This document shows positions 1,187-9,065 of a stretch of DNA of 9,065 nucleotides, one piece after another. Both the position numbers and the translations under genes were made by a program. Location: positions 1 to 9,065 of the forward strand of contig JADFLD010000043.1 in assembly GCA_022564535.1 (NCBI GenBank), given 5' to 3'. The DNA is from Gemmatimonadota bacterium (lineage in GTDB: Bacteria > Gemmatimonadota > Gemmatimonadetes > Longimicrobiales > UBA6960). Position 1 is the stretch's first letter, and each line of letters begins with the position of its first letter. Below the pieces are notes generated by a model. The model saw nothing but the letters and a program-made list of their open reading frames with translations, had not been told where the DNA came from and did not search any database.

Positions 1187-1456
1187 ATGGATCTCTCCGT
1201 AGGAGCGGCGGTCGTCCTCGGAGCCCTCGTCGTGCTGCGCTGTGGGCTCATCTGGCTCAGCGTGGGGTTGCTGCTGCGCTCGGCGCGAGAGTGCCCGGCC
1301 TGTTTTCGGCCGACGATGAAGATATTGCGTCCGATTGTGACGGCTTTGCTCCCCAACGCGGAATGGCGCTGGTGTCCTGCGTGCGGATGGCAGGGCCTCT
1401 CTAGAAAGCCCGAGGAGGGTGGATGGACTCGGAGGAATGTCAGGTCGCAGGCATGA
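1187..1456 (+). CDS. Membrane-anchored zinc-ribbon protein
   Basis: An 89-aa protein with one N-terminal hydrophobic helix (about residues 6-30) followed by two CPAC motifs, C36/C39 and C63/C66, spaced as in a zinc ribbon (or rubredoxin-like knuckle pair). The second is followed by GWQG, a common zinc-ribbon ending. It would be a membrane-anchored protein with a small metal-binding domain. A GAGGAAGGA ribosome site at 1174-1182 sits just before the ATG at 1187. The tail after residue 70 is charged, ends in RSQA, and overlaps the start of the ferredoxin gene. The role is unknown. Zinc ribbons of this kind usually mediate protein contacts, and a second zinc-ribbon protein is encoded at 2612. 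Confidence 0.7.
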   Translation: MDLSVGAAVVLGALVVLRCGLIWLSVGLLLRSARECPACFRPTMKILRPIVTALLPNAEWRWCPACGWQGLSRKPEEGGWTRRNVRSQA

Positions 1457-1665
1457 CGGTCCGGATCGACAGGCTGCTGTGTGTCGGCTTCGAGACGTGC
1501 ATCGAGGTCGCCCCCGATCTGTTTGACTTGGACGAGGAAGGCATCGCCGTCTTTCGCGAAAACATCGACGGAGTAAACCGCGAGGACGTTCTGGGCTCCT
1601 GCAGGTCGTGTCCCGTGGATGCTCTCGAGGTCTTCGACGCCTCGCACGTCAAGTTGGTCCCCTAG
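1423..1665 (+). CDS. Single-cluster ferredoxin, probably [3Fe-4S]
   Basis: An 80-aa ferredoxin of the short actinobacterial/cytochrome-P450-type family. C20-VGFET-C26-IEVAPDLF matches the 'CxGxxxCxxxAPxxF' pattern, with C63 in CPVDAL near the end. The position of the second cluster ligand is Phe23, so three ligands (C20, C26, C63) point to a [3Fe-4S] cluster; an extra C60 could change this. It should carry single electrons in the cytoplasm, plausibly to the radical SAM enzyme encoded downstream (inference). Two starts compete. ATG 1423 has a strong GAGGAGG at 1412-1418, 4 nt before it, and a 34-nt overlap with the preceding gene. ATG 1453 (70 aa, beginning MTVRIDRLLC) fits the usual family length and overlaps the upstream stop as ATGA. 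I list 1423 for its ribosome site, but 1453 is nearly as likely. Confidence 0.88.
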   Translation: MDSEECQVAGMTVRIDRLLCVGFETCIEVAPDLFDLDEEGIAVFRENIDGVNREDVLGSCRSCPVDALEVFDASHVKLVP

Positions 1666-1667
1666 AG

Positions 1668-2615
1668 ATGGGTCACGGAGACGGGGGCGCACGCGGTTCC
1701 GCCACGACCCCGGGGGTGCGACGGATTCGGAGCTACGCCGAGGTGACGCACGAGACGGGCTCGCAGCTTGAGGAGCAGGTCTTGGAGAAGCATGCGCGGG
1801 TCGCGGCGCGGCTCGAGCGGATCGCGGCGGTGGTGGCGATCGCGAGCGGCAAGGGCGGGGTCGGGAAGAGCATGGTGACCGCGAATCTTGCGGTCTCGCT
1901 CGCCCGCAGGGGTTTCCGTGTCGGCGCTCTGGACGCAGACCTCAACGGGCCGTCACTCGGCCGTATGCTGGGTTTTTCGAGGAGCCGGCTCCGGGACGAA
2001 CCGGGTGGTATCGTGCCGGCGAGCGGGGCTGGTGGCGTCGTCGGGATCTCGACGGATCTCCTGCTCGAGGACGATGCACCGCTTCGCTGGAAGGGGCCCG
2101 AGTCCGACCGCTTCGTGTGGCAGGGCATGGCGGAGGCCGCGGCTGTTCGGGAGTTTCTGTCGGACGTCGTGTGGGGGGATCTCGACTACCTGCTCGTCGA
2201 CATTCCGCCAGGTACGGACAAGATCGGCCGATTCCTCGACCTGGTTCCGAAACCCGCGGGCGTCATCGTCGTCACCACTCCCTCCGCGGTCACGCTATCT
2301 GTCGTGTCGAGGTCCGTATCGTTGCTCAGAGAGGCCGGAGTGGAGTCTCTCGGCGTCGTGGGGAACATGTCGGGATTCGCGTCTCCTGGATCCGAAGAGG
2401 CGCTCCCCATGTACGTTGGCGACGGCATCGAGCGACTCACCGAGTCCACGGGCCTGGAGCTCTGGGCGGAGATTCCGTTCGACCCGATCATGGGTGCCCG
2501 CACCGACGAGGGCGATCCTCCGGGTGAGGACGGTGCGTCCCTGTTCGGACGGGCGTTCGAGGCGCTGGCCGACCGAGTGGAGCGCCACGTCGGCCGAGGT
2601 GAGCCGGGCCCGTGA
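1668..2615 (+). CDS. Mrp/ApbC-like P-loop ATPase lacking the CxxC cluster motif
   Basis: A 315-aa ATPase of the Mrp/NBP35 branch of the MinD/NifH-like (SIMIBI) family. Visible are the deviant Walker A GKGGVGKS (61-68), the DADLNGPS switch region (89-96), WKGP (141-144), WGDLDYLLVDIPPGT (169-183) and GNMSGF (232-237). Mrp/ApbC proteins normally carry and transfer Fe-S clusters through a CxxC just after the NMS motif. Here that place reads ASPG (238-241), and I see no cysteine in the protein. An insertion of about ten residues (roughly 145-156) follows WKGP. The N-terminal MIP18/DUF59 domain of many bacterial Mrps is absent. The frame is open upstream, but ATG 1668, 2 nt after the ferredoxin stop, gives the natural start. 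It ends in a 4-nt overlap with the PCP_red gene. It may be an ATPase with a changed client or cofactor rather than a cluster carrier. Confidence 0.9.
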   Translation: MGHGDGGARGSATTPGVRRIRSYAEVTHETGSQLEEQVLEKHARVAARLERIAAVVAIASGKGGVGKSMVTANLAVSLARRGFRVGALDADLNGPSLGRMLGFSRSRLRDEPGGIVPASGAGGVVGISTDLLLEDDAPLRWKGPESDRFVWQGMAEAAAVREFLSDVVWGDLDYLLVDIPPGTDKIGRFLDLVPKPAGVIVVTTPSAVTLSVVSRSVSLLREAGVESLGVVGNMSGFASPGSEEALPMYVGDGIERLTESTGLELWAEIPFDPIMGARTDEGDPPGEDGASLFGRAFEALADRVERHVGRGEPGP

Positions 2616-3058
2616 AATTCCTTTGCGTCCCGTGCGACGAAGTGATGGCCTTCGTAGAGCGCCAACTCCCGGGTGACGGCACGCTCACGGCTGTCTTCAC
2701 GTGCCCGGGCTGCGACCGCGAGATGGCGATGCTCACCAATCCGATGGAGACCCAGCTCGTCACTTCACTCGGTGTGGAGATCGGCGGACGGACGGTCCCG
2801 GAGCAGCCGATGCAGCAGACCCGCATGGCTATGGACTCGCCTCGCGAGGACGCTTTGGATGCAGGCGTGGAGCCACCGCCACCAGGGCCTGTCACGTGGT
2901 CGCCCGAGGCTACGGCTCGTCTGGAGGGTGTCCCGCGCTTCGTGCGCGGCATGGTCAAGCGGATCTACTCCGACTACGCCAGGGAACAGGATATCAGCGT
3001 GATCACGCCCGCTGTCATGGATCAGGCCCGCAGCGACCTGGGCATGGAGGGCATGTAG
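2612..3058 (+). CDS. Zinc-ribbon protein with C-terminal PCP_red module
   Basis: A 148-aa two-part protein. Residues 1-40 hold C5-VP-C8 and C31-PG-C34, a zinc-ribbon arrangement. Residues 41-95 are a linker ending in a proline run (88-91). Residues 96-142 form a PCP_red-type module (compare Pfam PF08369): WSPEATARL, then VPRFVRG and a helix with YAREQDISVITPAVM. PCP_red is known from the C-terminus of BchB/ChlB of dark-operative protochlorophyllide reductase and occurs in other bacterial proteins, which makes tetrapyrrole handling a reasonable but unproven guess. The start is GTG 2612, overlapping the stop of the ATPase gene as GTGA, so the two are probably translationally coupled and may work together. 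An ABC ATPase gene starts 3 nt downstream. Confidence 0.85.
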   Translation: MKFLCVPCDEVMAFVERQLPGDGTLTAVFTCPGCDREMAMLTNPMETQLVTSLGVEIGGRTVPEQPMQQTRMAMDSPREDALDAGVEPPPPGPVTWSPEATARLEGVPRFVRGMVKRIYSDYAREQDISVITPAVMDQARSDLGMEGM

Positions 3059-3061
3059 TCG

Positions 3062-4021
3062 GTGTCTGACCCCGACACCGGGGCGAGGGGCGAGCCAGCG
3101 TTCAGTCCGGTGGTGCGCGCGGTCGGAGTGGACTTTCGATACCCGTCCGCGGCCGTGGCCCTTCGGGACATTCGGCTGGAAGGCCATGCGGGAGAGATCG
3201 TGGCCCTGGTCGGGCCGAACGGCGCCGGGAAGAGCACTCTCTTGCGCCTTCTGGCGGGAGCGCTGTCGCCGCAAGAGGGAACGCTCGAGCTGCCGCCCCG
3301 ACGCGGCCCCGAGGGGTGTGTGACGACGGGATATGCGGGAGAGGAGGTGTGTCATTTCGAGTCGCTCACAGGCACGGACAACGCCGTCTTCTTCGCCCGA
3401 GCCGCAGGTCTCGCTCGCAAGGATGCGGAGATCGCTGTCCGTGAGCATTTCGATCGGCTGCGCCTCTCTCCGGACGCGGACCGTCGGGTGTCGACCTACT
3501 CGGGTGGTGCCCGCCGAAAGCTGCTGCTGGTGGCAGCGCTCGTGCACCGGCCGTTGCTGACATTGCTCGACGAGCCCTTCGTGGGCCTCGACTTGGAGTC
3601 GCGCGAGGCTCTGGTGGGGCTCTTGCGTGAGCGGGCCGGGGAGGGCGGAGCGGTGATCATCGCCAGTCACGATCTTGCGCTCTTGCCCGAGCTCGCCGAC
3701 CGGATCGTGTTCCTCCACGATGCCCGAGTCGTCGCAGAGGGCCGTACCGCCGAACTTCTTTCGTCGGTCCCGGACGTGGGCCGGTTCGAGTTTACGCTGG
3801 ACGGCTCGTTCGATGAGTCCGCGTTCTCCCTCCCCGCGGGGATGCGCCTCGCCGACGAGCGGGACGCGCTCGTCCTGGAGAGCGATCGTGGGCAGGCCGC
3901 GCTTGCCGAAGCGTGTGCGGCCGTCGCGGCTTCGGGGGCCCGCATCCGGAGTGTCGTCGTTCGTGACGCGGGGCTGGCTGCGGTGTTCCGCAACGTTACG
4001 GGTGCGGAGCTCGGGGAGTGA
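3062..4021 (+). CDS. ABC transporter ATP-binding protein
   Basis: A 319-aa ABC ATPase. Walker A is GPNGAGKS (51-58), the signature is YSGGARRK (146-153), Walker B is LLTLLDEP (165-172), the D-loop follows at GLDLES, and the H-loop is ASHD (201-204). The Q-loop position reads YAGEE (91-95) where YxxQE is usual, so the glutamine appears to be Glu94. An extra domain of about 90 residues follows the ATPase core (230-319), as in many ABC-2 drug or lipid exporters. Together with the permease encoded next it should form an exporter with two ATPases and two permeases. The substrate is not shown. A CcmAB-like heme-export role is suggested only by the neighbourhood. GTG 3062 lies 3 nt after the preceding stop, and the gene ends in a 4-nt GTGA overlap with the permease. 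Confidence 0.93.
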   Translation: MSDPDTGARGEPAFSPVVRAVGVDFRYPSAAVALRDIRLEGHAGEIVALVGPNGAGKSTLLRLLAGALSPQEGTLELPPRRGPEGCVTTGYAGEEVCHFESLTGTDNAVFFARAAGLARKDAEIAVREHFDRLRLSPDADRRVSTYSGGARRKLLLVAALVHRPLLTLLDEPFVGLDLESREALVGLLRERAGEGGAVIIASHDLALLPELADRIVFLHDARVVAEGRTAELLSSVPDVGRFEFTLDGSFDESAFSLPAGMRLADERDALVLESDRGQAALAEACAAVAASGARIRSVVVRDAGLAAVFRNVTGAELGE

Positions 4022-4731
4022 CCGCCATCGTGTGGGCGCTCGAATGGCGCATCGCCACATCGCGTCGGCGACTCTTCGTCCTCAACATCGTCGTGCCGCT
4101 TCTGCTCGTGACGCCGATCGCGATGGGGGCCGCGCCGCCGGTTCACGCGGCCGCGGTCTACGCGGTGTTGTTTGCGATCTTCGGTACGTTCGGTTCGGCG
4201 ATTCCGCTCGTGAGAGATGCCGAGTCCGGGCTCTCCGGCAGAGTGCTCCGAGCCGGAGTCCCCGCCGCCAGCTATCTCCTCCAACGTAGCGCAGCCGCGG
4301 CGGTACTCGACGTGCTCCAACTCACTCCGGCGCTCGCTGTGGCCGCGGTAGGGTTCGAAGCGAGTCCTCGCGGATTCATCGCGGCGCTCGCGGCGCTTGC
4401 GGGTACCGCTTGGGTTGCGTGTCTCGTCGGAGTCCTCGTGGCCGTGGCGACTCGATCTCTCGCAGAAGCGGCTCTCTTTTCAGCCGTGAGCACGTTGATG
4501 CTCCTGCACATGTCTGGGGTGTTTCGGACGCCCCTTCCCGGCTCGATCGGAGCGACCTTCGAGACGGTGTCACCCTTCCGCGCGCTTCACGAGACGCTGC
4601 TCGCGATGGGTATGGACACTTCGATCGGCGGCGGCGTCTCGCTGGCTCTGTGGGGTGTGTGTCTGGGGCTCGGGATCGCGGTCTTTGCGGGACCAGCTAC
4701 GCGCTGGTTAGGTGCCTCAGGCGAGGTCTGA
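4018..4731 (+). CDS. ABC-2-type (CcmB-like) permease
   Basis: A 237-aa membrane protein with six hydrophobic segments at about residues 20-38, 43-65, 91-112, 119-145, 150-168 and 205-225. After the second comes a cytoplasmic stretch, PLVRDAESGLSGRVL (63-77), in the place where ABC-2 and CcmB-type permeases have their 'xRDxExGxLxxLL' coupling element. The length is close to that of CcmB (about 220 aa). It is the partner of the ATPase encoded before it, with which it overlaps by 4 nt (GTG start at 4018). The stretch SPFRALHETLLAM (185-197) before the last helix resembles the extracellular re-entrant region of ABC-2 exporters. The substrate cannot be read from the sequence. It is the last gene before a gap of about 410 bp. 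Confidence 0.85.
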   Translation: MTAIVWALEWRIATSRRRLFVLNIVVPLLLVTPIAMGAAPPVHAAAVYAVLFAIFGTFGSAIPLVRDAESGLSGRVLRAGVPAASYLLQRSAAAAVLDVLQLTPALAVAAVGFEASPRGFIAALAALAGTAWVACLVGVLVAVATRSLAEAALFSAVSTLMLLHMSGVFRTPLPGSIGATFETVSPFRALHETLLAMGMDTSIGGGVSLALWGVCLGLGIAVFAGPATRWLGASGEV

Positions 4732-4810
4732 GTGGGGCGGCTTACTCGCGTTCCGGACGGTCACCGGGGCGAGCAGAAGAGGGGTGCCTGAGGAGTTGTC
4801 CGGGGGATGG

Positions 4811-4839
4811 TTGACACTCCCTGACGCCCATCCCATACT
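4811..4839 (+). promoter_or_regulatory. Sigma70-like promoter candidate for the USP/radical SAM/oxidase operon
   Basis: A perfect TTGACA at 4811-4816, an optimal 17-nt spacer, and CATACT at 4834-4839 (4 of 6 matches to TATAAT, including the key second A and last T). The transcript would begin near 4846 and carry a leader of about 300 nt before the 5145 ATG. A second, weaker possibility is the extended -10 TG-A-TATATA at 4975-4983, which has no good -35. Confidence 0.45.
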
Positions 4840-4845
4840 CGTCCT

Positions 4846-5144
4846 TCCAGTCGGGCCGTAGTCTTCTGTTTTCGGTCCGATTGGCCCTCCTCGACATTCG
4901 GAATCCTCCTTACGAGGCTCTCGGAAGCTGAGGATTTCACGCGTAAAGTAGAGATCCGCTGGGTTCGGTGGATCTGATATATAAACCGGTGGACAGTTGG
5001 ATGAGGCCGCCGGACATAGACGCAGAAGTCCAGCACGGTCGTCCTAAGTGGCCGATGCCGCTTGTAGGGGTGACTAGACCACAGAGCGACGGTCTGGCGC
5101 TTAGGCACCCGTGCGTGTGAAATCCACACAGCCCATGGGTGGCC
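4846..5144 (+). promoter_or_regulatory. Possible structured 5' leader (inverted-repeat series)
   Basis: Stems found by eye: 4851-4857/4874-4880 (7 bp, one G-U); 4900-4908/4930-4938 (9 bp, one G-U, 21-nt loop); 4952-4957/4970-4975 (6 bp, perfect); and a nested pair, 5043-5050/5098-5105 (8 bp, one G-U) enclosing 5074-5080/5091-5097 (7 bp, one G-U). A palindrome, GTGTG-N5-CACAC, at 5115-5129 lies 15 nt before the start codon and could be an operator or a hairpin over the ribosome site. No known riboswitch consensus was recognised. The region could be a regulatory RNA, a set of protein-binding sites, or partly chance. Confidence 0.35.
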
Positions 5145-7316
5145 ATGTACAAAGAAATTCTGGTTCCGGTTGACAACTCCGACCCCTCCAATTGGGCGGT
5201 TGCGAGAGCAATCGAGATCTGCAAGCGTGCCGACGGCCGGATCACCGGAAACCACGTCTATGCGGCCCGCCTGCACGACGTTCGCTTTCGCCAGCTCGAG
5301 ACCGGTCTTCCTGCTCAGTTCCAGACCGCCAAGGAGATCAAGCGACAGCGCAGGATTCACGACAAGCTCATCGAGAAGGGGCTGCAGCTGATCTCCGACT
5401 CGTTCCTCGACGAGACCGAAAAGCAGTGCAAGGCGGCCGGCGTTTCGCTCACGCGCCAGCTCCTCGAGGGGATCAACTACGAGGAGATCATCCGTGAAGC
5501 CAACAGTGGCGCGGGTCGTCTACCGAGCCTGATCGGTTTCGATCCCAACATCGCCGACAAGTACGACGGCGGGGCCACGGTGCGGGGCGACATCATTCTG
5601 GGTAAGGACGGCAGGATCGTCGCGGAGGACGAGGACGACGACGAGAAGCTCGCGGGAACGAGCGGTCGTGCGTACGACCTTCTGGTCATGGGTGCGCACG
5701 GGATCGGCCGGCAGGAGTTCTCTCAACTCGGCGGCGTTGTCGCGCGCGTGCTGCGGAAGCTCGAAAAGGACGTGCTCATCGTCCGAAACGACCGCCCGTT
5801 GCAGGGCGGGAAGATGATGGTGTGCGTCGACGGGTCCGCATACAGCTACAAGGCTCTGCGGCTCGCGCTCGAGATGGCTCGTGATTTCGACGCGTCGCTC
5901 TACGTTTGCTCGGCGTTCGACGTCGAGTACCACCACGTCGTCTTTGGGAACATCAAGGACATACTCTCGGTCGCGGCGTCGAAGGTCTTCAAGTTCGAGG
6001 AGCAGGAGGAGCTCCACAACAATATCATCGACAAGGGGCTCTTGAAGCTCTGTAAGGCCAACCTGAAGCGTGGGGAGGTCATGGCCGAGGAGTTCCCCGA
6101 CGTGCCGGTGGAGACGCAGATCCTGGTCGGTAAGCCGTTCGACTGCATCCTCCGCTGGGCGGCCGAGATCGAGCCTGCGGTGCTCGTCATAGCGCGCCAC
6201 GGCAGTCACCGGATCGAAGGGACGGACCTCGGGTCGCAAGCCGACAACCTCCTCCGCCTTACCGAGAGCAGCGTCCTGCTGGTAGGGACGGAGGGCGTCT
6301 CGCCTGAGGACATTCCGTGGATCGAGGAGGACGGCGAGGCCGGCCTCGAGTGGGCACCGGATGCCGAGGTGCGTATCCTCAGGGTGCCGCCCTTCGCGCT
6401 GGGAATCGCGCGTCGAGCGGTCGAGGAGTTCATTCTCGACAACTACGGTGAGGGCGCCAACGGGACGTACCGTGAGGACAAGGTCGCGACCAACAGCAGC
6501 CGTCGTGCGGAGGCTCTTCTCGCGGGCGTGGGAGGCAAAAAGGGAAAGGCGGCGGCCAACGAGGCATCCTCGAGCAATGGCGCGTCCGCGCCCAGCGATG
6601 ACTCGCCCATGGTTGCGGTTCCGCCCCTCGGCACCGACCAGCGTCCCCTGGTGACCGGGGATCGGCTCGATGAAGCGATCAGCAAGCTCCTACCCACCCA
6701 CATGCAGCTCATCATGGGCATCGGGACGGCGGAAGAGCTGGCCCTCGCGGAGGTCAAGGCCGAAGAGGCCATGAAGCGGACGCACGTCGAGGGGAACGAC
6801 GCCGACCCGGAAGCGGACGTACCCATGATCTCCACGGCGTGCCCCTACACCGGCGATATCTTGACCCGCGAGCGGACCGAGGCAGATCCCATCGCCTGGA
6901 CCCAAGAGGCCTTCGATCGGCTCCGTGCCGTGCCGCTCATCGCGAGGCCGCTCGCGCGCAATACGGTCGAGCGATTCGCGCGCGGGCACGACTTCTGGCG
7001 TGTCACGACGCTCGTCATGGACGAGAACAAGGACGCGATGATCGAGGCCGACGAATTCGACATGGACACGATGCTCGTGATGTTCCGCGAGCTCCAGTCC
7101 AAACAGCTCAAGGCTGCGGCCGAGGGTGTCGACGGCTTGACCCCGGAGATGAGGCGATTCATCGAGGAGGCCAAGGCGAGCGGTGTCACGCGCTGTCCGA
7201 TCCGCGACGTCGCCGAGGCCGCGGACGATTGCCCGATCGACTTCAAGACGGTGACTCCGGAGCAGGCTAAGGCCGCCGTCGAGGGGTACATGAAGGACGA
7301 GGGCGCCTCGGAGTGA
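5145..7316 (+). CDS. Tandem universal-stress protein with two PCP_red-like modules
   Basis: A 723-aa cytoplasmic multidomain protein. USP domain 1 (about 1-215) begins MYKEILVPVDNSD and ends with MGAHGIGRQEF...VLIVRN, the ATP-binding signature of UspA-like folds. It is split by an acidic insertion (about 118-175, with EDEDDDE). USP domain 2 (about 222-381) begins MMVCVDGSAYS and ends RHGSHRIEGTDLGSQ...VLLVG. The two are internal duplicates; compare HDKLIEKGLQL (72-82) with HNNIIDKGLLK (291-301). A short PCP_red-like copy follows at 403-435 (WAPDAEVRI, VPPFALGIARR), then a low-complexity linker (about 462-490), then a fuller copy at 585-631 (WTQEAFDRL, VPLIARPLARN). Cys residues occur at C566, C684 and C696. 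Typical USPs are about 150 aa, so this is an unusual fusion. ATG 5145 is chosen over GTG 5139 because the USP consensus starts there. It overlaps the radical SAM gene by 4 nt. The role may be nucleotide-dependent sensing or scaffolding of a tetrapyrrole pathway (inference). Confidence 0.9.
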   Translation: MYKEILVPVDNSDPSNWAVARAIEICKRADGRITGNHVYAARLHDVRFRQLETGLPAQFQTAKEIKRQRRIHDKLIEKGLQLISDSFLDETEKQCKAAGVSLTRQLLEGINYEEIIREANSGAGRLPSLIGFDPNIADKYDGGATVRGDIILGKDGRIVAEDEDDDEKLAGTSGRAYDLLVMGAHGIGRQEFSQLGGVVARVLRKLEKDVLIVRNDRPLQGGKMMVCVDGSAYSYKALRLALEMARDFDASLYVCSAFDVEYHHVVFGNIKDILSVAASKVFKFEEQEELHNNIIDKGLLKLCKANLKRGEVMAEEFPDVPVETQILVGKPFDCILRWAAEIEPAVLVIARHGSHRIEGTDLGSQADNLLRLTESSVLLVGTEGVSPEDIPWIEEDGEAGLEWAPDAEVRILRVPPFALGIARRAVEEFILDNYGEGANGTYREDKVATNSSRRAEALLAGVGGKKGKAAANEASSSNGASAPSDDSPMVAVPPLGTDQRPLVTGDRLDEAISKLLPTHMQLIMGIGTAEELALAEVKAEEAMKRTHVEGNDADPEADVPMISTACPYTGDILTRERTEADPIAWTQEAFDRLRAVPLIARPLARNTVERFARGHDFWRVTTLVMDENKDAMIEADEFDMDTMLVMFRELQSKQLKAAAEGVDGLTPEMRRFIEEAKASGVTRCPIRDVAEAADDCPIDFKTVTPEQAKAAVEGYMKDEGASE

Positions 7317-8755
7317 GCGCGGACGCGGGAAGGGTACGCACGGGAGCTGCGGCCTCGCCCGTGACCCCGCTTCCGGTCGTCGACTCGTCTCCGGGCTCGA
7401 CGCTGGCGCTGCCCTGGGGCGACCCGGTGGACACGAGCGCCGACGGAACGCTTCTTCCTCACGTCGTCGCTTGGAACCTCACGCGCCGCTGTAACCTCGA
7501 GTGCTCCCACTGCTATATCTCGGCCGGGGCCTGGCACGGGACCGAGGGTGAGCTGTCCACCGCCGAGTGCTTCCGCATTCTCGACGACCTGCTCGAGGTG
7601 AACCCGTCGATGTTGCTCATCCTCAGCGGCGGCGAGCCCCTGCTTCGTGACGACTTGGAAGCCATCGCGGAGCGCGCGGCGGCGGCGGGGGCGACGGTCG
7701 TCGTGGGAACGAACGGGATCTTGCTCACGGACGAGCGCATCGAGTCGTTGAAGGCGGCGGGCGTGCGAGGCGTCGCGGTGAGCGTGGACTCCCTCAATTC
7801 GACGTATCACGATCGCTTTCGCCACGGAGTCGGCGCGCTCGAAGGAACGCTGGCCGCGGTGGACCGCCTCGTGCGGCACGAGCTGGACTTCATCATCCAG
7901 ACCAGCCTCACCAAGGGAAACCGACACGAGCTTTCCGACATGGTGGCCTGGGCGGCGGAGAAAGGTGCCGTCTCGTTCAACCTCTACTTCCTCGTTCCTA
8001 CCGGGCGCGGGGAGGGAATGCAGGGGCTGACGCCGACCGAGAACGAGGATGTCCTCACCGAGCTCCTCTCGCTCGAGCAGCAGTATCGGGGCCGTCTCAT
8101 GATCCGCTCCAAGTGCCAGCCACAGCTGATGCGCCACGTCTTCGAGGCTGGGGTGGAGTCGGGGCTCCTCAACTACGAGAAGCGTTGCCCGTGCGGGGTC
8201 CACTACTGTCGCATCACCCCTGAGGGGAAGGTCACTCCGTGCCCGTACCTTCCGGCGGTCGCGGGTGACCTCATGCGCGAATCGTTTCGCGATGTATGGA
8301 CGTCGTCTCCTGTCTTCGGTGCGCTCCGAGACGGCGAGCTTGGCGGAAAGTGTGGGCGCTGCGAGTACCGCGAGGTCTGCGGCGGATGCCGGGCCCGTGC
8401 GTACGCTCAGTCCGGCGACCTCCTGGGAGCCGACGAGTCGTGTGTCTACGAGCCTTCCGGCGATCGGCCGCTCGTAAAGAGCCAGCGTTCGATGATGTAT
8501 GGTCAGGCGGCCGAGACTGCGCTCTCGTGGACGCCCGAGGCGCGGCAACGCCTGGAGAAGATTCCGAGCTTCGTTCGAGGCGTCGTCACTGGCCGGGTCG
8601 AAGAGTTCGCGAGAAAGCGCGGTTATCTCGTAGTCGACTTGGAAGTCATGGCGGAGGTGCGTCGCTCGATGCCCGTAGACTTTTCCAAGAAGCTCCCCTT
8701 CTTCCTCCGTTCCGACGATGACAGCGGTTCGCAGGGGACGGGCGCCGATGCCTGA
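7313..8755 (+). CDS. AhbD/NirJ-like radical SAM/SPASM protein with C-terminal PCP_red module
   Basis: A 480-aa radical SAM enzyme. The cluster motif is C60-NLE-C64-SH-C67, followed by SGGEPL (105-110). The C-terminal half has a SPASM-type auxiliary-cluster set: C292, C294, C299, C310, then CGRC (347-350), C356, C359 and C377. The CGRCEYREVCGGCRARAYA stretch and the RITPEGKVTPCPYLP stretch are typical of AhbC/AhbD/NirJ and related enzymes, which modify heme-precursor side chains in the alternative-heme and heme d1 pathways. Residues 406-453 add a PCP_red module (WTPEARQRL, IPSFVRG). The first 46 residues are variable and disordered-looking. The GTG start at 7313 overlaps the USP gene's stop by 4 nt. 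The end overlaps the oxidase-like gene by 8 nt, which ties it to that complex. A peptide-modifying SPASM role is the main alternative, but no precursor-peptide gene was seen. Confidence 0.92.
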   Translation: MSADAGRVRTGAAASPVTPLPVVDSSPGSTLALPWGDPVDTSADGTLLPHVVAWNLTRRCNLECSHCYISAGAWHGTEGELSTAECFRILDDLLEVNPSMLLILSGGEPLLRDDLEAIAERAAAAGATVVVGTNGILLTDERIESLKAAGVRGVAVSVDSLNSTYHDRFRHGVGALEGTLAAVDRLVRHELDFIIQTSLTKGNRHELSDMVAWAAEKGAVSFNLYFLVPTGRGEGMQGLTPTENEDVLTELLSLEQQYRGRLMIRSKCQPQLMRHVFEAGVESGLLNYEKRCPCGVHYCRITPEGKVTPCPYLPAVAGDLMRESFRDVWTSSPVFGALRDGELGGKCGRCEYREVCGGCRARAYAQSGDLLGADESCVYEPSGDRPLVKSQRSMMYGQAAETALSWTPEARQRLEKIPSFVRGVVTGRVEEFARKRGYLVVDLEVMAEVRRSMPVDFSKKLPFFLRSDDDSGSQGTGADA

Positions 8756-9065
8756 GCGCACCTCGCTCGCTCGAATCCTGCAGCGCACGGCGTTACCGCT
8801 GCTGTGCGCGGGTGCCGGCGTGACCCTGCTGGCGCTCCTGGCAGAACCGCTTCTGGCTCAGGGCTACACGCCGCGCGAATACGGTGACTTCCCCATCATC
8901 GGCTCACGAGCCGCGGTGTGGATCGCGGCCCAGCTGCATCTCTTCTTTGCCGCATTCGTGCTCGGCGTGCCGATGTTCGCCGTGGTGGCCGAGGCCATCG
9001 GCATCTTCGCCCAGGACCGGGAGGAGGTTTGGCGCGGAAAGGACGGCAAGCCGGTTCGCACCGCC
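8748..9065 (+). CDS. Partial N-terminus of a cytochrome bd-like oxidase subunit I-type membrane protein
   Basis: The frame is open from ATG 8748 to the window edge (106 residues, no stop), so the gene continues beyond it. A first hydrophobic segment (about 17-36) ends PLLAQGY and looks like a signal peptide or signal anchor. After SRAAVWIAAQLH (53-64) comes a second helix, LFFAAFVLGVPMFAVVAEAIG (about 65-85). A histidine at the start of such a helix, followed by this F.LG.P pattern, recalls the first helix of CydA-type subunits, whose His is a heme ligand. The bd-like oxidases reported in Nitrospira-type genomes are the closest match I can recall. AGGGGA at 8733-8738 is a good ribosome site. 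The 8-nt overlap with the radical SAM gene implies one operon. With only the N-terminus visible the assignment is tentative; the reading frame itself is secure. Confidence 0.7.
   Translation, partial: MPERTSLARILQRTALPLLCAGAGVTLLALLAEPLLAQGYTPREYGDFPIIGSRAAVWIAAQLHLFFAAFVLGVPMFAVVAEAIGIFAQDREEVWRGKDGKPVRTA

Follow-up and report, generated by a model that had tools for sequence, protein, structure and literature searches.

Results

Gene content of the locus

The window, by which we mean the whole 9,065-nucleotide stretch of Gemmatimonadota DNA analysed here, contains a run of plus-strand genes (Table 1). Three of its proteins, a zinc-ribbon protein, a tandem universal stress protein (USP) and a radical SAM protein, matched PCP_red (PF08369) in Pfam hmmscan above the curated cut-off of 32.5 bits, and are abbreviated below as Zn-PCP, USP-PCP and rSAM-PCP. 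The window ends inside a CydA-like gene that, cut short in this way, had no Pfam match of its own; the full-length CydA-like relative at locus L001 is a Cyt_bd_oxida_I protein at 78.8 bits (PF01654 cut-off, 26.2).

Table 1. Positions of genes and PCP_red modules in the window
Feature	Position (nt)	Strand	Basis or remark
Small ferredoxin (Fer4_13/Fer4_15)	1423..1665	+	Pfam, 37-40 bits
Mrp/NUBPL-type P-loop ATPase	1668..2615	+	PF10609, 206.8 bits; start codon inferred from L001
Zinc-ribbon (two CxxC) protein with C-terminal PCP_red	2612..3058	+	Pfam; 4-nt overlap with Mrp gene
PCP_red module 1	2897..3031	+	Zinc-ribbon protein residues 96-140; PF08369
ABC transporter ATPase	3062..4021	+	PF00005
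ABC-2 type permease	4018..4731	+	PF01061, 36.1 bits
Tandem universal stress protein with two PCP_red copies	5139..7316	+	PF00582 above cut-off; tandem fold
PCP_red module 2, helices 1-2 (degenerate, split copy)	6351..6449	+	Tandem-USP protein; core pattern and relatives
Probable helix 3 of module 2, displaced by low-complexity insertion	6648..6695	+	Model helix 507-517; contiguous by eye in L066
PCP_red module 3	6897..7031	+	Tandem-USP residues 587-631, best copy (PF08369)
PCP_red module 4	8528..8662	+	Radical SAM protein residues 406-450; PF08369; pLDDT 90-95
Radical SAM/SPASM protein with C-terminal PCP_red	7313..8755	+	PF04055, 89.3 bits; PF13186, 32.6 bits; PF08369; 4-nt overlap with USP gene
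Start of CydA-like gene (cut by window end)	8748..9065	+	Matched by L001 CydA-like protein; start codon inferred from relatives

Both CxxC motifs of Zn-PCP are kept in 83 of 85 relatives. A C-terminal CxxC is expected of Mrp/ApbC Fe-S carriers; the Mrp ATPase of the window has none, and in 21 of 85 relatives a regular expression located a CxxC a short way past the NMS motif.

PCP_red modules

An earlier note on this DNA had described four PCP_red-like modules in three protein architectures, and the profile search bears this out. PF08369 scored 51.9 bits for Zn-PCP, 41.9 bits for USP-PCP (whole protein, in which two stretches pass E 1) and 54.6 bits for rSAM-PCP, each at the place given in that note; the remaining segment, 6351-6449 (module 2), whose counterparts in ten related genomes score below the cut-off, is a degenerate copy. 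The pattern that the note had offered for all four modules was also searched as a regular expression. Its core starts exactly at 2897, 6351, 6897 and 8528, but the strict form, with [RG] in the final position, fits three modules and fails at 6351, where the last position is L. When the residues of the three proteins were pooled and shuffled 20,000 times, the core pattern never appeared. In no aligned group does any His or Cys inside the modules reach 80%, and the conserved positions are Trp, Ala, Leu, Pro, Phe and Arg; at one module position of the Methylomirabilota USP group, most sequences have His.

PCP_red is able to stand alone, as PDB chains of 62 and 63 residues (2l09 and 2kru) match it. 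The structure-search matches listed included no PCP_red chain and displayed the radical SAM and USP folds instead, because large domains fill the lists. Full-length NCBIfam models of BchB/ChlB (DPOR) were matched by their C-terminal part alone, at 39.5 bits for Zn-PCP and 29.8 bits for USP-PCP against full-length cut-offs of 490-912 bits, which neither protein reached; for the radical SAM protein, no DPOR family was among the best 25 of 82 families. Pfam found no nitrogenase-like domain in the three proteins, and the earlier remark that no BchB/ChlB-like gene is present was right within the window.

We read module 2 as a PCP_red that is degenerate and split, its third helix lying near nt 6648; the copy is weak, but we judge it to be real. 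A second, weaker USP match was found in all 10 genomes of a profile check (20.5-28.8 bits, all below cut-off), spanning profile positions 1 to 28-31 in nine of them and 1-43 in G007 (24.7 bits). In L066 the counterpart of module 2 passes directly, by eye, into third-helix-like sequence. The first USP copy of a second phylum (five loci, L149-L153) scored 45-47 bits with a PCP profile from the Gemmatimonadota modules. In the window, a low-complexity insertion lies between helix 2 and the helix-3-like stretch at about 6648, and the AlphaFold model of USP-PCP (mean pLDDT 70) has helices at 407-413, 418-436 and 507-517, the last preceded by a poorly predicted insertion. All 56 USP sequences aligned share H521, which closely follows helix 3. 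Structure search gives the protein a USP fold, and its ATP motif (G-x9-G-S, at residue 355) is partial. The PCP profile counts one or two copies in 19 USP frames of the second phylum. By eye, the USP protein at L123:6602-8539 has three PCP_red-like copies, the first two of them separated by a rubredoxin-like CxxC pair.

Radical SAM protein

The cysteines of the CxxxCxxC motif (C60, C64 and C67) are invariant in 58 sequences, and the protein has the features of a radical SAM/SPASM enzyme. Against curated models, the window protein scored 290 bits with NirJ2, 278 with AhbD and 248 with TIGR04053, versus 137 with MftC and 111 with PqqE; the L066 protein came closest to AhbD (308 bits) and NirJ2 (298 bits). 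With cut-offs of 500 bits each for AhbD (TIGR04545) and NirJ2 (TIGR04055), rSAM-PCP falls below the cut-offs of these two families and of TIGR04053. In a phylogenetic tree of the best 30 loci of a longer list, ten named plasmid-borne relatives and second-phylum matches to the AhbD model, rSAM-PCP of both phyla formed one clade (support 99/98) apart from NirJ, from AhbD/TIGR04053-like proteins and from MftC, which was placed far off; some branches are long and the deeper order is unsure. The rSAM-PCP of L070, a locus titled Rokubacteria, groups inside the Gemmatimonadota clade, by transfer or mis-binning.

The best structural matches of the radical SAM protein are mostly peptide maturases. The PDB sequence matches at E 1e-5 included no chain under the name AhbD or NirJ, so the structural comparison is unable to separate heme from peptide substrates. 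JGI names several rSAM-PCP relatives 'AdoMet-dependent heme synthase' (among the best 120 of 7470 matches; the other similarity listings likewise held the best 120, of 1911 and of 5590 matches). At L190:1-1671, from Thermus thermophilus, a TIGR04053 radical SAM gene lies between nirS and a cytochrome c gene, and this nirS neighbour hints that TIGR04053 also serves heme d1.

Conservation of the locus in Gemmatimonadota

Related loci were sampled as the best 80 of 128 relatives, most of them titled Gemmatimonadota and some of them bins under other names. Ten genomes chosen from these loci were searched with the profile, and in all ten the PCP_red copies above cut-off lie in one stretch of 3.7-6.1 kb and in three open frames; G006 has an additional match at another place, weak and below cut-off at 18.4 bits. 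The three architectures, whose co-occurrence the earlier note had proposed to survey, thus share one locus in each of the ten genomes.

Gene order is strongly kept. Wherever there was enough sequence, rSAM-PCP follows USP-PCP (71 of 71 loci), a CydA-like gene comes after (63 of 64), and coxA together with a cytochrome c/EB_dh gene lies downstream (49 of 49). Among 60 loci with at least 5 kb of upstream sequence, Zn-PCP is found within 5 kb upstream of USP-PCP in 57, a ferredoxin within 6 kb in 57, and the Mrp ATPase is kept in 57. Zn-PCP is absent from this 5 kb in L043, L057 and L027; the first two carry it farther off, and L027 has none within 10 kb. The stretch up to 4 kb upstream of USP-PCP is more variable across the 60 loci: it holds the ABC ATPase alone in 24, the small membrane protein TM66 alone in 17, both in 3 and neither in 16, so that the ABC ATPase is present in 27. 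A Trm112-like zinc-binding protein, encoded upstream of the set at 38-442 of the window, had no counterpart in any of the 80 loci at the search thresholds applied.

Two apparent gene fusions were rejected. A USP-rSAM fusion in L012 has a run of N in the contig as its joint, and an rSAM-CydA fusion in G165, one of those suggested by long open frames around CydA-like matches in GC-rich genomes, resolved by coordinates into two matches in different frames.

The set adjoins an operon of CydA-like, cytochrome c, EB_dh and cox genes. Neither this operon nor the membership of the Mrp ATPase and the ferredoxin in the set was part of the earlier note. Directly upstream of USP-PCP in L027 (241-10000) lies a second CydA-like / cytochrome c / EB_dh set, as if the operon had been duplicated.

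CydA-like protein and HemQ

In all 72 relatives the CydA-like protein retains the counterparts of E. coli H19, E107 and H186, and hemes are therefore expected in it. E. coli E99, K252, E257, E445 and M393 are not conserved in the 72 relatives, the alignment being loose around M393/E445. We take K252/E257 (quinol loop), M393 and E445 of E. coli CydA to be the marks of a canonical quinol-oxidising CydA, and by these marks the protein is not one.

Of the 51 Gemmatimonadota genomes with the CydA-like gene, 48 encode a HemQ-type protein (PF06778), versus 41 of the 149 others. Bulk heme b therefore need not depend on rSAM-PCP, and the counts disfavour the radical SAM protein as the sole coproheme decarboxylase of the cell. 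In 8 of 80 loci the flanking sequence contains a HemQ match; at L001:4647-5477 a HemQ/chlorite-dismutase-like gene stands just upstream of the locus.

Co-occurrence of PCP_red and CydA-like genes

Presence per genome, as distinct from co-location, was surveyed in 200 genomes from the larger group formed by the phylum of L001 (titled Gemmatimonadetes), with L001:13613-15409 as the CydA-like query. A PCP_red match at E 0.01 was found in 73 genomes, three or more copies in 52, the CydA-like gene in 51 and both of the latter in 50. The CydA-like gene was thus present in 50 of the 52 genomes with three or more copies versus 1 of the 148 others (Fisher 1.5e-43, uncorrected for kinship). All 51 CydA-like genomes are PCP_red-positive, the one outside the 50 being G043, with two copies. 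Three or more copies occurred without a CydA-like gene in G025, where the contig ends inside the radical SAM gene, and in G162, where none was found in the 1.9 kb after rSAM-PCP. The other 20 PCP_red-positive genomes without a CydA-like gene comprise 16 with two matches and four (G036, G099, G143 and G191) with one. In the 16, the best copies score 67-83 bits and lie in frames of 528-766 aa, which were taken for putative BchB-like proteins of phototrophs. G106 and G194, with six matches each, probably hold both kinds of PCP_red.

Canonical CydA, defined as PF01654 at E 1e-60 or better, was present in 63 of the 200 genomes. Three or more PCP_red copies occurred in 9 of these 63 versus 43 of the 137 without it (Fisher 0.014, in the negative direction; kinship ignored). 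Since canonical CydA does not track the set, the link of PCP_red is to the divergent CydA-like gene.

Occurrence in a second phylum

A sample of 95 genomes was reached via the L070 genome. It was taken for Methylomirabilota because the rSAM-PCP of G210 is P0241, which bears the NCBI name candidate division NC10 bacterium CSP1-5. PCP_red matches were found in 65 of the 95 genomes, with up to 10 per genome. A CydA-like match was found in 60 genomes, of which G277 was dropped for its weak match (E 5e-13); the 59 left match at E 1e-60 or better. PCP_red and the CydA-like gene occurred together in 57 genomes, the CydA-like gene alone in 2 (G260 and G291, whose best matches lie at contig ends), PCP_red alone in 8 and neither in 28.

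The locus L123 runs USP-PCP, rSAM-PCP, TM66, Mrp, Zn-PCP, CydA-like, cytochrome c, EB_dh, an order that differs from that of Gemmatimonadota; in L153 the USP and radical SAM genes belong to the same gene run but come on the far side of its cox genes. In the loci examined from both phyla, the three architectures are found together. The PCP_red modules are real, shared and co-located, and in two phyla they show a strong statistical association with a single kind of bd-like gene. The grouping is not chance. The earlier note had called the repeated module a system mark rather than a coincidence, and the joint retention of the architectures in two phyla and the tracking of the CydA-like gene by PCP_red counts uphold that view.

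The second phylum also has a separate protein that consists almost wholly of three PCP_red-like copies, seen as seven frames in six loci (L134:3503-4351, L131, L133, L148, L155 and L157); it is near CydA-like or EB_dh genes in three of the six (L133, L134 and L157). The labels Tectomicrobia, Entotheonellaceae and Acidoferrum stood on three matches among the best 120 of 5590.

Discussion

The bd-like complex encoded downstream comprises a CydA-like subunit, cytochromes c and a cytochrome c/EB_dh protein, often with a cox operon. Our preferred explanation, to which we give about an even chance of being correct, is that all four modules are parts of a single conserved accessory system for this complex, with PCP_red as its docking module. 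The accessory set of ferredoxin, Mrp ATPase, Zn-PCP, USP-PCP and rSAM-PCP probably builds the bd-like complex, a function that we infer throughout from domains and neighbours. The radical SAM enzyme may receive its electrons and Fe-S clusters from the ferredoxin and the Mrp ATPase. As kin of AhbD and NirJ, rSAM-PCP might make or trim a heme of the CydA-like complex, or modify a subunit. The tandem-USP protein could be an ATP-sensing scaffold and the zinc-ribbon protein a carrier or adaptor, and PCP_red would be the docking module shared by all three, bringing enzyme, scaffold and carrier together on one client or with one another. The accessory or maturation role, the heme-like substrate of the radical SAM enzyme and the docking role of PCP_red are all parts that we infer.

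The earlier note had proposed a shared ligand, a tetrapyrrole, or a shared docking partner. The strongest alternative follows the first of these: PCP_red would be a tetrapyrrole-binding module that lets each of the three proteins take up one and the same heme, or heme precursor, and relay it. The module is familiar from BchB/ChlB, the nearest families of the radical SAM protein belong to heme pathways, and the neighbouring genes encode heme proteins, all of which would suit such a ligand. The modules themselves, however, lack a His or Cys at 80% in any aligned group, their conserved Trp, Ala, Leu, Pro, Phe and Arg suit a folded core with a docking face equally well, and the portions of the literature examined contain no statement that PCP_red forms or lies in a pigment site. 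It is possible that PCP_red holds a ligand without His/Cys contacts. We consider this alternative doubtful, though a serious candidate; the tetrapyrrole as shared ligand is the part of the earlier proposal that stays conjectural, while its system mark stands.

A more specific form of the docking model is also doubtful, and somewhat more so. Here rSAM-PCP would make a heme other than heme b, USP-PCP and Zn-PCP would hand it to the bd-like oxidase, and PCP_red would be a mobile docking module. If true, this would be a dedicated special-heme pathway for a respiratory enzyme, with a module common to a chlorophyll enzyme; no description of the oxidase's heme content was found.

That rSAM-PCP is a protein- or peptide-modifying SPASM maturase, in which PCP_red replaces the leader-recognition domain and the client is an oxidase subunit or Zn-PCP, seems improbable to us. 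The SPASM domain and the mostly peptide-maturase structural matches are what such an enzyme would show, but the curated models place it nearer to NirJ2, AhbD and TIGR04053 (290, 278 and 248 bits) than to MftC or PqqE (137 and 111 bits), and MftC is far off in the tree.

Distinctly improbable is a set that regulates the oxidase operon rather than maturing its product, with the USP and zinc-ribbon proteins sensing ATP and redox state. The tight operon with respiratory genes, the USP fold and the partial G-x9-G-S motif at residue 355 would fit a redox- or energy-sensing regulator, yet a ferredoxin, an Mrp-type ATPase and a radical SAM enzyme suit a biosynthetic step better, and no DNA-binding domain was found at the Pfam cut-off in the three PCP_red proteins.

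We think it very unlikely that rSAM-PCP is the whole-cell oxygen-independent heme b synthase (AhbD), as the JGI name on several of the relatives listed would have it, given scores of 278 and 308 bits against a cut-off of 500, a clade of its own and a HemQ-type protein already present in 48 of 51 CydA-like genomes.

If the preferred explanation, an accessory system for the bd-like complex, is right, a Pfam domain listed as phototrophy-related in a genome survey would also mark a respiratory accessory system, and most carriers here would hold that system without high-scoring BchB-like copies. It would name genes for testing the heme supply of divergent bd-like oxidases, and would offer an entry to the role of PCP_red in DPOR.

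Comparison with known systems

No paper on this gene set was found in the portions of the open-licence PMC literature covered, the topics of bd-type oxidases and heme d included. A USP linked to a LI-POR_suB-like_C domain has been noted in Methanomicrobiaceae as an unusual automatic annotation in archaea (PMC12159084). It combines a USP with the same domain as in the window but, in the parts of that paper examined, without mention of a radical SAM or zinc-ribbon partner or of an oxidase context (PMC12159084). PF08369 was counted among phototrophy-related families in the pre-screen of a genome survey, before pathways were checked, according to the part seen of PMC12815261. The OR-N type CydA of Nitrospinota has been called uncharacterised and its affinity for oxygen in Nitrospirales unknown, and the portions seen of the two papers do not mention PCP_red partners for the OR-N type CydA of Nitrospirales/Nitrospinota (PMC10839748, PMC12342949).

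By profile, the PCP_red of BchB/ChlB and the stand-alone Asr4154 (2l09) are the same domain as that above cut-off in the three window proteins. In contrast to BchB/ChlB, the window copies sit on a radical SAM enzyme, a zinc-ribbon protein and a tandem USP, and the nitrogenase-like domain was not found. AhbD, NirJ, NirJ2 and TIGR04053 are the closest curated families of the radical SAM part, but rSAM-PCP lies below all their cut-offs, forms its own clade and has the extra PCP_red domain. Within the cytochrome bd superfamily, the neighbouring CydA-like protein is a divergent Cyt_bd_oxida_I in which K252/E257 of the E. coli quinol loop are not kept.

Ccm, for cytochrome c, and CydDC, for cytochrome bd, are accessory systems of heme complexes. 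To our knowledge, none of the known accessory systems of this kind uses PCP_red; what Ccm and CydDC have in common with the present set is that cytoplasmic and transport proteins are encoded beside the genes of a heme complex.
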